A stretch of 37,752 nt of DNA from Halorubrum lipolyticum DSM 21995 (GTDB lineage Archaea; Halobacteriota; Halobacteria; Halobacteriales; Haloferacaceae). Both the position numbers and the translations under genes were made by a program. The stretch lies in contig NZ_AOJG01000033.1 in NCBI RefSeq assembly GCF_000337375.1, forward strand, positions 1 through 37,752, in the 5' to 3' direction. Below the pieces are notes generated by a model, which had not been told where the DNA came from, searched no databases, and was given only the letters and a program-made list of their open reading frames with translations. Shown one piece after another: positions 17,114 through 22,879 of the stretch (its first letter is position 1; each line of letters starts with the position of its first letter).

Positions 17114-17932
17114 ATGGACGGAACGCGCACACCTGACGACGGGGTCCCGGACCGGCTGACGCTTCACGTCGGCGACGAGGAGCGGCTGTTCGAGCGGGCG
17201 CGACACCGCTCGACTCCGACCGAACTCGTCGTCTCTCCGGTCGAACTCCATCAGCGGAACGTCCAGCGTCGACTCCGCGAGGCGCGGCTGCCGACGGACG
17301 CCTTCCGCTTCGCGGACCCGGTCGGCATCGGGACTCGGGTTTTGGAGGTCGCGGGCCGTCCGACCGCCGCCGTCGACCGCGTCGACCGCCTCTCGCTGAT
17401 CCGGTCGGCGCTCGGCTCCGGCGAGCCCGACGCTCCCGTGATCTCCGCCCTCCCGACGGGGGCTGCGTCGCGAGACCCGCGACGCGCAGAGCAGATCCGG
17501 GCGGACGTGGAAACGGTCACCAACTTCCACCCGGAGCGGATCGCGGCCTGGACGGACACGGCCGCCGCGCTCCCCGGACCGATCGACGACGAAGCGGACG
17601 GTCTCCTCGACGCCGGACTCGGGATCGAACGCGAACTCCGGGCTCGGACCGACGAGGCCGTCTCGGAGACGGCCCTCCTGCGCCGCGCGACGCGGTCGAT
17701 CACGGCGACCGACGGGTCGGCGTGGGCGGAGGCGTACCCGAACGTCGAACGGCTCACGCTCCTCGGGCTCAGCGCCCTGTCGGCGCCGCACACCGACCTC
17801 CTCCACGGGCTGCTGGCCGCCACGTCCCTCGAGGTCCACGTCCACTTCCGGCAGGGGACCGGGGAGTACCTCCGGAGTCGGGTCCCCGACCTCCTCGCCG
17901 TCGCCGACCTCGGAGCGGAGGCGTTCGAATGA
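17114..17932 (+). CDS. AddB-like helicase-family protein, N-terminal part
   Basis: A 272-residue protein of no obvious domain by itself. Segments such as TELVVSPVELHQRNVQRRLR, VGIGTRVLEVAG and VDRLSLIRSAL, followed by many short helices and the late strand SLEVHVHFRQG, fit the first (1A/1B) domains of an AddB- or PcrA-like superfamily 1 protein that has lost its Walker A site; no GxGKT/S is present. Its TGA overlaps the next ATG (ATGA), and the next protein begins where a 2A domain would, so the two look like one ancestral AddB split in two. This reading rests on order and context; similarity is weak. Confidence 0.5.
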   Translation: MDGTRTPDDGVPDRLTLHVGDEERLFERARHRSTPTELVVSPVELHQRNVQRRLREARLPTDAFRFADPVGIGTRVLEVAGRPTAAVDRVDRLSLIRSALGSGEPDAPVISALPTGAASRDPRRAEQIRADVETVTNFHPERIAAWTDTAAALPGPIDDEADGLLDAGLGIERELRARTDEAVSETALLRRATRSITATDGSAWAEAYPNVERLTLLGLSALSAPHTDLLHGLLAATSLEVHVHFRQGTGEYLRSRVPDLLAVADLGAEAFE

Positions 17933-19242
17933 CGGGGGCCGACCGGCTCGCGCTCTCGGCACCGATCGACGCGCCCGACGTGCCGGCGGTCGAGATCGCC
18001 TCCCCGACGCGCCGGGACGAGGCGCGCGACGCGATGGCGGTGGCGGCTGCGCTCCGGGGGGCGGGCGTTCCGGTCAGGGACGTCGCCGTCGTCGCCCGCG
18101 ATCTCGACCCCTACGAGGGGCCGCTGTTCCGGGCGGCGCTCCAGCACGGGGTCGCGCCGGTGTTCTGGACGCAGCTGCGGGTGACGCGAACCCGGCCGTA
18201 CGCCCTCGTCGAGGCGGTGTGCGAGGCGCTGTCCGGTGACGCCGCGGACCGCGAGACGCTGCTGCGCCCGCTCGAACTCGGCTGGTCGCCGTCGGGATCG
18301 GGCGACCCGTCGAACCCGCCGCTCCCGGACGACGCCGACCGCCCGTCACCGGGCTGGCCGATCGAACCCGAAGCGCTCCACCGAGCCCGAGAGGCCCTTC
18401 CGGACGGGTCGCGGCCGCTCTCCGAGTGGATCGAGGTGATCGACGGGAGCGAGTCGACGATCGCCGCGGACGACAGGGTCCGGCGGTTCGCCGAGTGGCT
18501 CGACGCCGCTCCCGCGCCGGGGCCGTCGTCGGTCGCCTCGGTGCTCGGCGAGGCGGTAGAGGGGTACGCCGACCGCGGGCTCCCGGAGACGAAGGCCGCG
18601 GACTCGCCGGCGCTCCTCGACACCGAGACCGACGCGCGCGCGGTCGTTCGCGTTCGCACCCTCGTCCGACAGCTGCGGCGCAAGCTCGCCGACCGGCTCG
18701 AGGAGGGGACGCTGGAGCGCTCGTGGAGCGCGGTCGCCGATCTCGCCGGGGTGATCGCTGCGCAGCGCCCCGGTCGCCGGGAGCACTCGAACGCCCGCGC
18801 GCTCGACGTCTTCGAGGCGAACGACGTCTGGGCGCTCGAGGTCCCGTACGTGATCTCCGTCGGGATGACCGCGGAGGAGTGGCCGCGGCCGTCGCGGTCC
18901 GTGTTGCCGCCGGAGTTTCGGGAGGCGGTCCTCCGAGGCGAGGGAGCGACCGGAGCGCTCGCGCCGCGGCCGGCGTGGGTCGGCGGTCGCGACCGCGATC
19001 AGTTCGCCGACACGCTCGGGGCGGCGGAGCGCTGTCTCGTCTTCACCCGACACACTCGGACTCCCGCCGGCGACGACGCGGCCCGCTCCCCGCTGCTCGA
19101 TCACCTCGACACGCGGCGGGTCGCCGAGGAGTCCCGGCGCGAACTGGCCGGGACGGAGCGGGAGCTTCCGCCCGAACTGCGAGCGGTCGTCGCCGGCGAG
19201 TCCGGGGGCACCCACGTGGACCCGGAGGCGGACGATGAGTGA
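17929..19242 (+). CDS. AddB-like helicase-family protein, C-terminal part
   Basis: A 437-residue protein. Near the N terminus, VRDVAVVARDLDPYEGPLFR followed by HGVAPVFW matches the 2A-domain signature of superfamily 1 helicases and AddB/RecC. Later, PYVISVGMTAEEWPRPSRSV and FADTLGAAERCLVFTRHTRT correspond to the AddB segments that precede and form the last helicase-like motifs. The C-terminal nuclease and its iron-sulfur cysteines, normal in AddB, are absent: the protein ends in an acidic tail. It overlaps its neighbours at both ends (ATGA upstream, 8 bases downstream), so all three products are likely made in fixed ratio as one complex. Probable role: inactive scaffold subunit in DNA end processing. 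Confidence 0.6.
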   Translation: MTGADRLALSAPIDAPDVPAVEIASPTRRDEARDAMAVAAALRGAGVPVRDVAVVARDLDPYEGPLFRAALQHGVAPVFWTQLRVTRTRPYALVEAVCEALSGDAADRETLLRPLELGWSPSGSGDPSNPPLPDDADRPSPGWPIEPEALHRAREALPDGSRPLSEWIEVIDGSESTIAADDRVRRFAEWLDAAPAPGPSSVASVLGEAVEGYADRGLPETKAADSPALLDTETDARAVVRVRTLVRQLRRKLADRLEEGTLERSWSAVADLAGVIAAQRPGRREHSNARALDVFEANDVWALEVPYVISVGMTAEEWPRPSRSVLPPEFREAVLRGEGATGALAPRPAWVGGRDRDQFADTLGAAERCLVFTRHTRTPAGDDAARSPLLDHLDTRRVAEESRRELAGTERELPPELRAVVAGESGGTHVDPEADDE

Positions 19243-22200
19243 CGGCGACCCCGTCCGCTTGCGGGGCGCACAGCGAGAGATCAGAGACGCCTATTTCGCG
19301 GCCGACGCCGGGCTGTTCACCCTCGACTGCGTTCCGGGGGCGGGCAAGTCGGTCGTCGCTCACCACGTCGCCGCCGAGGACATCCTCCGCCGGTACGCGG
19401 CCGGGGACCCGACCCCGGAGCAACACGTCGCGGTCGTCTCGTTCAACCGCGACGAGGCCGCCGACATCGCGCCGGCGATCTGCGACCGGCTGCGGGCGCT
19501 CGTCGAGCACGACCTCGTCCCCGCCGCGGCCGACGTCTCCGAGGCGGAGCTGCGGTACCTCCGACAGCGAACGCGACAGGCTCCCTACGCGGGCACCGTC
19601 GACGGGTTCCTGCGCGGGATCTTCCGGGAGTTCGCCGGCGACATCGGCTTCGACGGGACGCCGTCGGTCGGGAACGACGCGCTCCTGCGGCGGGTCCACC
19701 GCGACTGCTACGAGTCGCTCCGCGACGACCCGGAGCACGCCCGGCGGCTCCGCGACCTCGAAGCCGCGTATCCCGAGGGGGAGTACGACGCGGGCGTCGA
19801 CGAGATGCTGGCGGACGCGCTCGCGTACTGCCGCGACCGGCGCCTCTCGACCGATTCGTTCCGGTCGGAGCTGACGCGGACGCGCGACTCGACGTATCCC
19901 GGCGGGAGACCCGACTCGTTCGACGCGATCGCGCGGTCGGTCCGGCTGTTCGTCGAGGGCGAGGCGATCGGGGACCGAGAAGCGGCCGGCAAGGCGACCG
20001 GGAGCCGAGAGGCGGCCGGCGACGCGTCCGACGGCGACGCGTCCGGTGCCGCCGCCGACCGACTCCGAGAGGCGGTGACCGGCCCGGACCGAGCGCGTCT
20101 GCTCGGCGCCGACCGCGAGCTGTACGACGCGTGGGGCGCGCGCATCGACGACTTCTGTGCCGTCCTCTCGGCGTACCGCGCCCGCTACCGGACCGCGGTC
20201 CGGGAGCACGGCGCCGTCTCCCACACCGACGTCGCGTACCTCGTGGACGCGTTCCTCGACGAGTCGAGGGGGCGGTCGGACCTCCCGGAACCGCTCCGAT
20301 CGGTCGACGACTCGCATCGGGACCGGGTTCTCCGGACGTATCGGTCGCGGATTCGGAGTCTGGTCATCGACGAGGCGCAGGACGTGTCCGCCGTCCAGCA
20401 CGCCGCGCTCTCGCACGTCGTGACGAGCGAGTCGCGCGTGTTCGCCTGCGGCGACGCCCTCCAGGGGATCTACCTGTGGCGACACGCCGACCCGCGGTGG
20501 TTCGCCGCCGCGACGGCCGAGGGGACGTACCTCGGCGTGGACTGGGACACCCACGAGAACCGGACCGCGACCACGACCTACCGGTGCGTGCCCGACGTCG
20601 CCGCGGCGATAAACGCGGTCGCCGGCCCGGTGTTCGACGACCCGGCTCGCGGACGGCTCGGCGACCTCGACGCCGCGTCCCCGCGGTTGAACGCGGCCCG
20701 CGACGGCGGCGACGACCCGGCGGTCCACGTCTCCTCGTTCGCCGGTATCGGTCACCCCGGGTCCGGGACGTGGGCCGACCCGGAAGGCGAGGTCGGGGAG
20801 GCGAACATGCTCGCGAGACACGTCTCGCGGGGGCTCGCGGACGGGACGTTCCGCGACGCCGACGGCGACCCGCTCGGCGTCACGGTGCTGTTCCGCCGGG
20901 GGACGCGAATGCCCGAGTACGAGGCGGCGTTCGCCGACGAGGGGCTCCGCGTCCGCACCGCGACCGACGCGCTGTTCGACTGCCCCGCCGTCGAGACGGC
21001 GCTCGCCGTCTGCGAGTGGCTGATCGCCCCGGGCGCCCCCCGACGCACCGCCGAGCTCCTCACCGAGTCGCCGCTGTGCGACGCCGTCGACGCGTCTCCG
21101 GTCGAGGCCCGAATGTGGGACCTCGACCGGGTGCTCGACGACGATCCGCCCGCCCTCGGGGACGCGCAGCGGAACGCCCTCGAGGGACTCGCCCGGCTCC
21201 GCGACCGCAGCGACGCGTTCCGGCGGCTCCCGGCGAGCGTCTACGTCGAGGACGTCGTCGAGGCGCTCGCGCTCCGGGCCGACCCGAACGGGTTCGTCGA
21301 CGAGACCGACGCGGACCAGCGGGTCGCGAACCTGGATGCGCTCGTCGAGACGCTCTCCGACTGGGAGGGAGAGGACCGCTACCCGCCCTCGGAGCTGATC
21401 GACCTCGCGGCGCCGTTCCGCGAGGACCCCGGCCTCGGCCCGACGCAGCCGAGCGCGGCCGGCACCGCCTCCGACGTCGAGTTCCGCACGGTCCACCGAG
21501 CCAAAGGGGACCAGGACGACGTGGTCGTCGTCGCCGACCCCGGGTTCGACATCTGGTCGCGCGGCCCCCACACTCGTCGGTTCGTCGCGCAGGGACCGAT
21601 CGCGGGGCTCGCCCCGCCGACGAACACGGACGTGCCCGGCGACATCCCCGTCCCGCCCTTCGACGGGGGGCTGTACGACGCCGGTGACGGCTGGAGCCGC
21701 GACGCCGGGCTCCGCTGGGCGACGGCCCGGTGGCGCGACTCGGCGGTCGACTCCGTGTCGGACTCGGCGTCCGATACCGCCTCCGCCGACCGCGACGCGC
21801 TCGTCGGCCCCGCTCGGCTCGGCCGCGTCGCGGGGAACGAGCGCGCCGAGGCCTGGCGGCTGCTGTACGTGGCGCTGACGCGGGCCCGGGACCACCTCGT
21901 CGTTCCGCTGCCCCGCTCGGCCGCGGGAGGGGAGCTGACTCGGGACCGGTGGCTCGACGCGCTCCGCGACGGGCTGGCCTTCCCGCGCGGCGGGAGCGAC
22001 TCCTACGAGCTGCGGCTCGACGCGGACCCGAACCGTGACGCGATCGAGGTCGGCGTCAACGACGCGGACCTGTTCGCCCGACTCGACCGCCCGGTCTCGA
22101 CGGCGGGACGGGCTCACGTCGCCGCGTCTCCGACGCGTCGCGACCGGCTCGACCCGTGGGTCCCCCGGTTCCTGAGCCCCAGCACGATGTACCCGTTGAC

Positions 22201-22879
22201 GGAGGACGCGGATCGGTACGCGCTCGCCCACCTGTTGGGCGAACCGCTGCACACGGCGACGAACGAGGTCTCGGACGGTCTCCCCCTGCGCTTCGATCGG
22301 CTCGGTCCCGAGGCGGTGGGGACGTGTCTCCACGACGCGCTCACGCGACTCGTCGCCGGCGGCGTCGACGGAGGGGCGATCCGGACGACGGGGGCGGACG
22401 CGCGAGCGGCCTTCGACGAGGCCGCGAACGCGCTCCCGGAGCCGGTCGCCGGGGCGGAACGCGAGGGGATGTTCGCCTTCTTCCGGACCGTCCTCGACGA
22501 TTTCCTCGACTCCGACCTGTGGGAGCGGATCGCGGACCCGGCGACCGCGGTCGGCGTCGAACGCCCCCTGGACGGGCTGGCCGAGGTCGACGATCTCGAG
22601 GTCGAGATCCACGGGCGGGCGGACTTCGTCGTCGAGTACCCGACCGGAGAGCGGTTCGTGACCGACGTGAAGATTGCGCTGGCCGAGCCGACTCCCGAGA
22701 CGCGCCGGCGGTACGAGCTCCAGATCGCGGCGTACGCGTTCCTCGCGGAACAGCGCGGCGCGTCGGACGCCACGGTCAGCCGGACCGTCGAGACGTTCGG
22801 CGTCGCGACCGAGACGACGGGCGCCTCCTGGCCGCCGGACATCGTCCACCGGCGGCTGCGACGGCTCCTCGACCGTTGA
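19235..22879 (+). CDS. AddA-like UvrD helicase with C-terminal PD-(D/E)xK nuclease
   Basis: A 1214-residue helicase-nuclease. Helicase motifs are intact: Q13, Walker A PGAGKS (34-39), Walker B IDEAQD (378-383), motif III GDALQGIYLWR (406-416), motif V TVHRAKG (752-758) and motif VI ALTRARD (880-886). The C terminus is a RecB-type nuclease: H1033 in TCLHDAL, D1130 in HGRAD, D1144-V-K1146, and Q1163-x3-Y1167. It should unwind and degrade DNA ends using ATP, like AddA/RecB in recombinational repair. Two low-complexity inserts, about residues 243-275 and 843-857, are rich in Ala, Ser, Asp and Gly. With the two preceding genes it forms an operon. The motif reading is firm; equivalence to AddAB is inferred. 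Confidence 0.88.
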   Translation: MSDGDPVRLRGAQREIRDAYFAADAGLFTLDCVPGAGKSVVAHHVAAEDILRRYAAGDPTPEQHVAVVSFNRDEAADIAPAICDRLRALVEHDLVPAAADVSEAELRYLRQRTRQAPYAGTVDGFLRGIFREFAGDIGFDGTPSVGNDALLRRVHRDCYESLRDDPEHARRLRDLEAAYPEGEYDAGVDEMLADALAYCRDRRLSTDSFRSELTRTRDSTYPGGRPDSFDAIARSVRLFVEGEAIGDREAAGKATGSREAAGDASDGDASGAAADRLREAVTGPDRARLLGADRELYDAWGARIDDFCAVLSAYRARYRTAVREHGAVSHTDVAYLVDAFLDESRGRSDLPEPLRSVDDSHRDRVLRTYRSRIRSLVIDEAQDVSAVQHAALSHVVTSESRVFACGDALQGIYLWRHADPRWFAAATAEGTYLGVDWDTHENRTATTTYRCVPDVAAAINAVAGPVFDDPARGRLGDLDAASPRLNAARDGGDDPAVHVSSFAGIGHPGSGTWADPEGEVGEANMLARHVSRGLADGTFRDADGDPLGVTVLFRRGTRMPEYEAAFADEGLRVRTATDALFDCPAVETALAVCEWLIAPGAPRRTAELLTESPLCDAVDASPVEARMWDLDRVLDDDPPALGDAQRNALEGLARLRDRSDAFRRLPASVYVEDVVEALALRADPNGFVDETDADQRVANLDALVETLSDWEGEDRYPPSELIDLAAPFREDPGLGPTQPSAAGTASDVEFRTVHRAKGDQDDVVVVADPGFDIWSRGPHTRRFVAQGPIAGLAPPTNTDVPGDIPVPPFDGGLYDAGDGWSRDAGLRWATARWRDSAVDSVSDSASDTASADRDALVGPARLGRVAGNERAEAWRLLYVALTRARDHLVVPLPRSAAGGELTRDRWLDALRDGLAFPRGGSDSYELRLDADPNRDAIEVGVNDADLFARLDRPVSTAGRAHVAASPTRRDRLDPWVPRFLSPSTMYPLTEDADRYALAHLLGEPLHTATNEVSDGLPLRFDRLGPEAVGTCLHDALTRLVAGGVDGGAIRTTGADARAAFDEAANALPEPVAGAEREGMFAFFRTVLDDFLDSDLWERIADPATAVGVERPLDGLAEVDDLEVEIHGRADFVVEYPTGERFVTDVKIALAEPTPETRRRYELQIAAYAFLAEQRGASDATVSRTVETFGVATETTGASWPPDIVHRRLRRLLDR

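Follow-up and report, generated by a model that had tools for sequence, protein, structure and literature searches.

The stretch of DNA analysed here (the window; 37,752 nucleotides of Halorubrum lipolyticum DSM 21995, contig NZ_AOJG01000033.1) contains a three-gene operon that, with a probability of about 0.8, encodes an accessory AddAB-type helicase-nuclease made of three chains and carrying one nuclease. The chains are: P0001 (AddB-N), P0003 (AddB-C), and P0002 (AddA). An earlier note, made from the sequence alone, had proposed three overlapping genes of 272, 437, and 1214 residues (joined by ATGA, then by 8 bases), and the open reading frames (ORFs) were confirmed as described. The same note read the locus as AddAB-like, with AddB divided between two coupled genes. 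That identity is now supported by the match of P0002 to AddA, the AddB fold of a relative in which the two small proteins are one chain, and a profile match of P0003 to AdnA.

The 1214-residue P0002 is an AddA. It matches the UvrD-helicase and PDDEXK_1 families, both above the curated Pfam cut-offs, and among solved structures the best match to a profile built from 21 relatives is B. subtilis AddA (3u44_A, E 3.9e-64), with AdnB and RecB ranking below. The NCBIfam AddA equivalog is not reached (48.7 bits, cut-off 707.65). The UvrD motifs and complete PD-(D/E)xK site first noticed in the sequence hold across 65 relatives: K38, D379, E380, Q410, R416, R450, K757, and G758 are invariant in 65/65, and H1033, D1130, K1146, Q1163, and Y1167 each deviate in no more than one of the relatives covering the site. 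The deviant at the H, K, Q, and Y positions is L049; D1144 shows only D/E exchange, one row excepted. This near-invariance argues that motor and nuclease are both under strong constraint. No C-terminal cysteine cluster is found in P0002. Models of GajB from the Gabija system match P0002 only over the shared UvrD motif regions, and the neighbouring genes are AddB-like; no search was aimed at GajA. P0002 is single-copy in the genome of the host, which is 3.43 Mb long and 99% complete; H. kocurii and other Halorubrum species are its closest named relatives in the AddA tree. An Asp/Glu/Ala-rich insert (window 19955-20095) lies between the two Walker motifs of AddA; it is often missing from relatives, to judge by the matches, which break at this point.

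Taken alone, P0001 and P0003 have no significant Pfam or NCBIfam family match. The closest sequence match of the P0003 profile is AdnA (E 3.8e-5). In some relatives, both small proteins occur as one continuous chain of about 670-750 residues, and the AlphaFold2 model of one such native fusion (L095, Halarchaeum rubridurum, 709 residues) is confident, with a predicted local distance difference test (pLDDT) of 90.6 and a predicted template modelling score (pTM) of 0.87. In a Foldseek search with this model, the five AddB chains rank first in the PDB (E 1e-18). In VIA-align, the model superposes on B. subtilis AddB with Z 22.7 over 607 residues (root-mean-square deviation 5.1), residues 18-693 aligning on residues 2-716 of the 1,166-residue AddB. 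The model of P0003 from the window (pLDDT 85.5, pTM 0.64) matches AddB from ~291 to ~719 (Z about 17) and UvrD from ~290 to ~661 (Z about 19). An unrelated fold, which would have undone the proposal, was thus not what structure prediction returned for the fused relative or for P0003.

Judged by its model, P0003 is AddB domains 2A and 2B. P0001 aligns with the N-terminal ~267 residues of the fused relatives, and the fused form matches AddB from residue 2; since P0003 covers AddB ~291-719 and both together make up the helicase-like half, P0001 is assigned by alignment to domains 1A/1B. No Walker A motif is present in P0001. The suggestion that both small proteins carry AddB-like 2A and late-motif segments therefore held for P0003 and failed for P0001, which corresponds to 1A/1B. 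The AddB region past ~720, comprising the nuclease and the iron-sulfur cluster, is missing, and the AddB-like proteins end where the fold match ends (~716). A second PD-(D/E)xK nuclease is absent from the AddB part, as is the four-cysteine iron-sulfur region, whose cysteines persist only in the full-length relatives L107-L114; both absences agree with what had been read from the sequence.

The division of AddB is real and old. The species collection supplied 52 named loci; with the window added, AddB is split at 37 and a single fused chain at 16. In 36 of the 37 split loci the TGA of the first gene and the ATG or GTG of the second form a four-base overlap (RTGA); only L085 departs from this, with CTGA. 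Overlaps of this kind couple translation strictly in Haloferax volcanii (PMC6728339), and genes for subunits of one complex are enriched among those with short overlaps (PMC10666635). The AddA tree places the split loci in one clade of 41 with support 100, and L040 is a separate, independent case of splitting beside fused relatives; AddA trees with outgroups repeat this picture, bacterial AddA serving as root in none of the trees. Fixation across haloarchaea, a question raised at the outset, thus applies to one large clade, and other clades carry a fused, nuclease-less AddB. Both small genes are under purifying selection, with ratios of nonsynonymous to synonymous substitution rates (Ka/Ks) of about 0.3-0.5 within the Halorubrum group.

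The split point lies between the two RecA-like halves of AddB. Because MAFFT put the first residues of the split rows at the wrong end (alignments A1 and A5), the fold match and the main body of the alignment were used to locate the split. In the fused model it falls where confidence is lower (residues ~261-290). In genome G052 (contig 2, 202271-202663) a partial second AddB-N, with 38% identity over residues 9-139, lies ~30 kb from an intact operon.

The deepest relatives of the window lineage are full-length haloarchaeal AddB proteins of 1,116-1,202 residues (L107-L114). Full-length P0005 is related to AddB itself (NCBIfam addB_Gpos, E 5e-14; AddB chain 3u44_B, E 3e-6), and the full-length type is related to P0003 (E 8e-9 for L047). 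Among L107-L114 the C-terminal cysteines are kept in 8/8 and the G-x-D...DxK nuclease signature is found in 0/8; L049 and L050 have a shorter AddB without the nuclease/iron-sulfur domain. Because full-length proteins retain the cysteines and have lost the signature, and shorter forms exist, the probable order is death of the AddB nuclease, then loss of the domain (perhaps on several occasions), then splitting of the half that was left, as inferred from trees whose deepest haloarchaeal branches are weakly supported (82/65).

Canonical AddAB also occurs in this phylum. Outside the haloarchaeal order, adjacent genes encode AddB (~1,030-1,120 residues) and AddA (L163-L169, L176-L178), the AddB having C-terminal cysteines and, in several, an intact DYK nuclease; the carriers are probably methanogens. 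Within the order, about thirty of 293 genomes have ORFs of roughly 1,060-1,140 residues that match AddB over a short stretch. Ten of these loci were opened (L263-L272), and every one encodes an AddB with intact nuclease and C-terminal cysteines, followed by an AddA-like ORF that is shortened in one case. An assignment of the ~1,065-residue ORFs as UvrD-Cas4 fusions was accordingly rejected. The AddA of these canonical operons groups with that of other phylum members, apart from the window lineage, and both AddAB types occur together in some genomes (G083, G066). The scores of archaeal canonical AddAB fall well short of the curated AddB threshold, and automatic annotation would therefore not assign the name; a literature search that did not cover subscription papers found no paper describing archaeal AddAB. 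The presence of canonical AddAB here means that archaeal AddAB is not itself exceptional: of the surprise voiced in the earlier note, the single-nuclease split form remains, and the idea that AddAB would be unusual in archaea gives way to a dual-nuclease form in many haloarchaea and other phylum members. At two loci (L170 in G533, L171 in G456) AddA itself has a CxxCxYxxxC motif near the C-terminus; its nuclease therefore looks Cas4-like with an iron-sulfur cluster, unlike that of the window.

The proposed enzyme can be considered against the B. subtilis mechanism. There, the lone motor is in AddA, the 3'-ended strand passes through the AddB helicase-like domains, where Chi is scanned, to the AddA nuclease, and the 5'-ended strand goes to the AddB nuclease (PMC4824097). 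By homology, the haloarchaeal enzyme would retain its motor along with the scaffold and the nuclease of AddA, but the cutter of the 5' strand would be gone. We infer that AddB-N, AddB-C, and AddA assemble into one three-subunit machine, as well as its activity, strand routing, and any Chi-like control. The steps would be: loss of the AddB nuclease domain and iron-sulfur cluster before the split; coupled translation of AddB-N and AddB-C, which would rebuild the inactive helicase-like half of AddB; unwinding from a DNA end by AddA in the 3' to 5' direction, as the 3' strand threads its way through the scaffold formed by both AddB chains; and cutting of that strand by AddA's own nuclease. As the AddB nuclease is lost, one chain, AddA, would serve as sole ATP-driven motor and sole nuclease. 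Each locus has either the fused or the split form (16 versus 37 loci), which is consistent with a three-chain enzyme.

The fission also bears on Chi control. The Chi-binding residues F68 and F210, the latch contact E129, and the latch D627-R629 are known for AddB (PMC4824097). By the aligned AddB ranges, F68, F210, and E129 fall in the part equivalent to P0001, and D627-R629 in the part equivalent to P0003. The Chi-binding residues and the latch lie in different halves, and fission would therefore put two Chi-control elements on separate subunits. A fuller reading would combine division of the scaffold at the hinge between the RecA-like halves, separating the Chi-binding part (1A/1B) from the latch part (2A), with degradation of only the 3'-ended strand, making this a dedicated DNA-destroying AddAB derivative that evolved in steps (a dead nuclease, a lost domain, a split gene) and works beside canonical resection systems; we regard that combination as rather unlikely.

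Two points weigh against a three-chain AddAB. At the sequence level the small proteins resemble AddB weakly, and the link was made via intermediates. In addition, an enzyme whose AddA cuts the 3' strand and whose 5' cutter is lost would leave no 3' overhang for recombination, unless AddA cuts both strands like RecB or another nuclease helps. The enzyme may degrade only the 3'-ended strand, or AddA may cut both strands as RecB does; degradation of the 3' strand alone would suit the destruction of foreign ends better than the making of recombination substrates.

The distribution suggests an added system. A complete truncated or split operon occurs in 17/146 haloarchaeal genomes, all parts being linked in 17/17, and none was found among the sampled phylum members outside the haloarchaeal order. 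NurA is present in 129/146 genomes and in 15/17 operon carriers, so the operon adds to the archaeal resection machinery. The contrast first drawn with the usual archaeal HerA-NurA system is weakened by this coexistence, and replacement of HerA-NurA was rejected on the same count. Two high-quality genomes of one genus (G129 and G141, loci L045 and L042) have a fused AddAB and no NurA match. The NurA family (PF09376) was found above its cut-off in Haloferax volcanii among the control genomes, whereas a review states HerA and NurA to be absent from that species (PMC7776575). The species representative of H. volcanii yielded no locus of the operon.

The strongest alternative, to which we give somewhat less than even odds, keeps the same three-chain enzyme and assigns it to defence: it would rapidly degrade one strand of linear or plasmid DNA entering the cell instead of repairing host breaks. 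Its patchy distribution fits this role, as does the loss of the 5'-strand nuclease, which suits degradation better than the making of 3' tails. Mobility points the same way. Window-type AddA is present on 17 plasmid records (two of the distant dead-AddB type), several genomes have two operon copies, and the AddA gene tree mixes families and departs from the species; together these point to horizontal transfer. The plasmid records name these AddA genes only "UvrD-helicase domain-containing protein" and their overlapping neighbours "hypothetical protein". Recurrent neighbours also favour defence: eight loci have DUF7344 helix-turn-helix regulator genes directly upstream, five (L057, L058, L065, L082, L084) have an HNH endonuclease-like gene of ~260 residues upstream, and four have an integrase-like gene directly downstream. 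Against it, the operon occupies one stable chromosomal site in the window's Halorubrum group, beside a thioredoxin gene that is present without the operon in other Halorubrum, and no clear defence island surrounds it. Among 140 flanking genes, scanned without a control set, few match PADLOC models and many have housekeeping or plasmid functions, making a defence-island neighbourhood only weakly indicated. A viral origin was rejected: viral contigs contained no relative of AddB-C, and the AddA query gave only short generic UvrD matches there.

The remaining alternatives fare less well. AddA might act alone, the small proteins having separate roles such as single-strand binding or regulation, as their being separate chains would allow; this is improbable, since they form one chain in 16 loci, fold there as one AddB unit, and are always linked to AddA. 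Less probable again is a ribosomal frameshift at the overlap yielding a fused AddB in split organisms. AddB-C does lie in the -1 frame across an ATGA overlap, but the bases before the overlap vary between clades, no slippery heptamer is seen by eye, and ATGA is a standard stop-start coupling signal in Haloferax (PMC6728339). P0002 could be a stand-alone fusion nuclease with unrelated passengers, given that UvrD-Cas4 fusions share its layout of UvrD and pfam12705 nuclease (PMC5704561); very little speaks for this, as its closest solved relative is AddA, it lacks the C-terminal cysteine cluster, and its linkage to an AddB-like partner is constant. A sequencing error or recent pseudogene, the frameshift alternative considered earlier, has nothing in its favour beyond the relatives with a fused gene and is ruled out by the 37 loci, the clade support of 100, and purifying selection on both parts.

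Table 1. Coordinates of the operon and its active-site motifs in the window.
Feature	Position	Strand	Description
AddB-N gene (P0001)	17114..17932	+	272 aa; predicted helicase-like domains 1A/1B of AddB; no Walker A
ATGA stop/start overlap AddB-N/AddB-C	17929..17932	+	4 bases
AddB-C gene (P0003)	17929..19242	+	437 aa; predicted helicase-like domains 2A/2B of AddB
AddB-C/AddA overlap	19235..19242	+	8 bases
AddA gene (P0002)	19235..22879	+	1214 aa; superfamily 1A (SF1A, UvrD-type) helicase and C-terminal PD-(D/E)xK nuclease
Walker A GAGKS, P0002 residues 35-39	19337..19351	+	G35, G37, K38 same in 65/65 relatives
Walker B Asp-Glu, D379 E380 of P0002	20369..20374	+	same in 65/65 relatives
Nuclease motif His, H1033 of P0002	22331..22333	+	kept in 62/63 relatives covering the site
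Nuclease catalytic Asp, D1130 of P0002	22622..22624	+	kept in 63/63 relatives covering the site
Nuclease (D/E)xK, D1144-K1146 of P0002	22664..22672	+	D or E in 62/63; K in 62/63
Nuclease QxxxY, Q1163-Y1167 of P0002	22721..22735	+	Q in 62/63; Y in 63/64 relatives

Comparison with known systems places the operon closest to AddAB. Like B. subtilis AddAB (PDB 3u44, 3u4q, 4ceh), it has an AddA with motor and C-terminal nuclease, an AddB with the 1A/1B/2A/2B helicase-like fold, and AddB genes directly before AddA; it differs in that AddB lacks the nuclease, the iron-sulfur cysteines, and Walker A, and in this clade consists of two chains. Canonical archaeal AddAB has the same operon order and subunits, with short AddB/AddA overlaps in most loci, but its AddB is a single chain of ~1,030-1,130 residues with intact nuclease and C-terminal cysteines, and its AddA forms a separate branch of the tree.

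RecBCD has one working nuclease, in its RecB-like chain, and its RecC is an inactive helicase fold. The window operon resembles it in pairing a single working nuclease with an inactive helicase-fold partner, and RecC is among the fold matches of the fused model; in contrast, the operon has no gene for a RecD-like second helicase, and RecC is one chain that keeps a nuclease-like domain. AdnAB of mycobacteria has two chains, with nucleases on both AdnA and AdnB. AdnA is closest to the P0003 profile, but the window operon does not have a nuclease in both subunits. The UvrD-Cas4 fusions of mesophilic archaea join UvrD to a pfam12705 nuclease, as in P0002; they are not described with an AddB-like partner, and P0002 lacks Cas4-like cysteines (PMC5704561).

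The series from canonical through nuclease-dead and truncated to split AddB amounts to a natural experiment. It bears on the purpose of the AddB nuclease, of the iron-sulfur cluster, and of holding both halves of the Chi scanner in one covalent chain, and it opens to testing the question of whether a single-nuclease AddAB serves resection, destruction, or defence.

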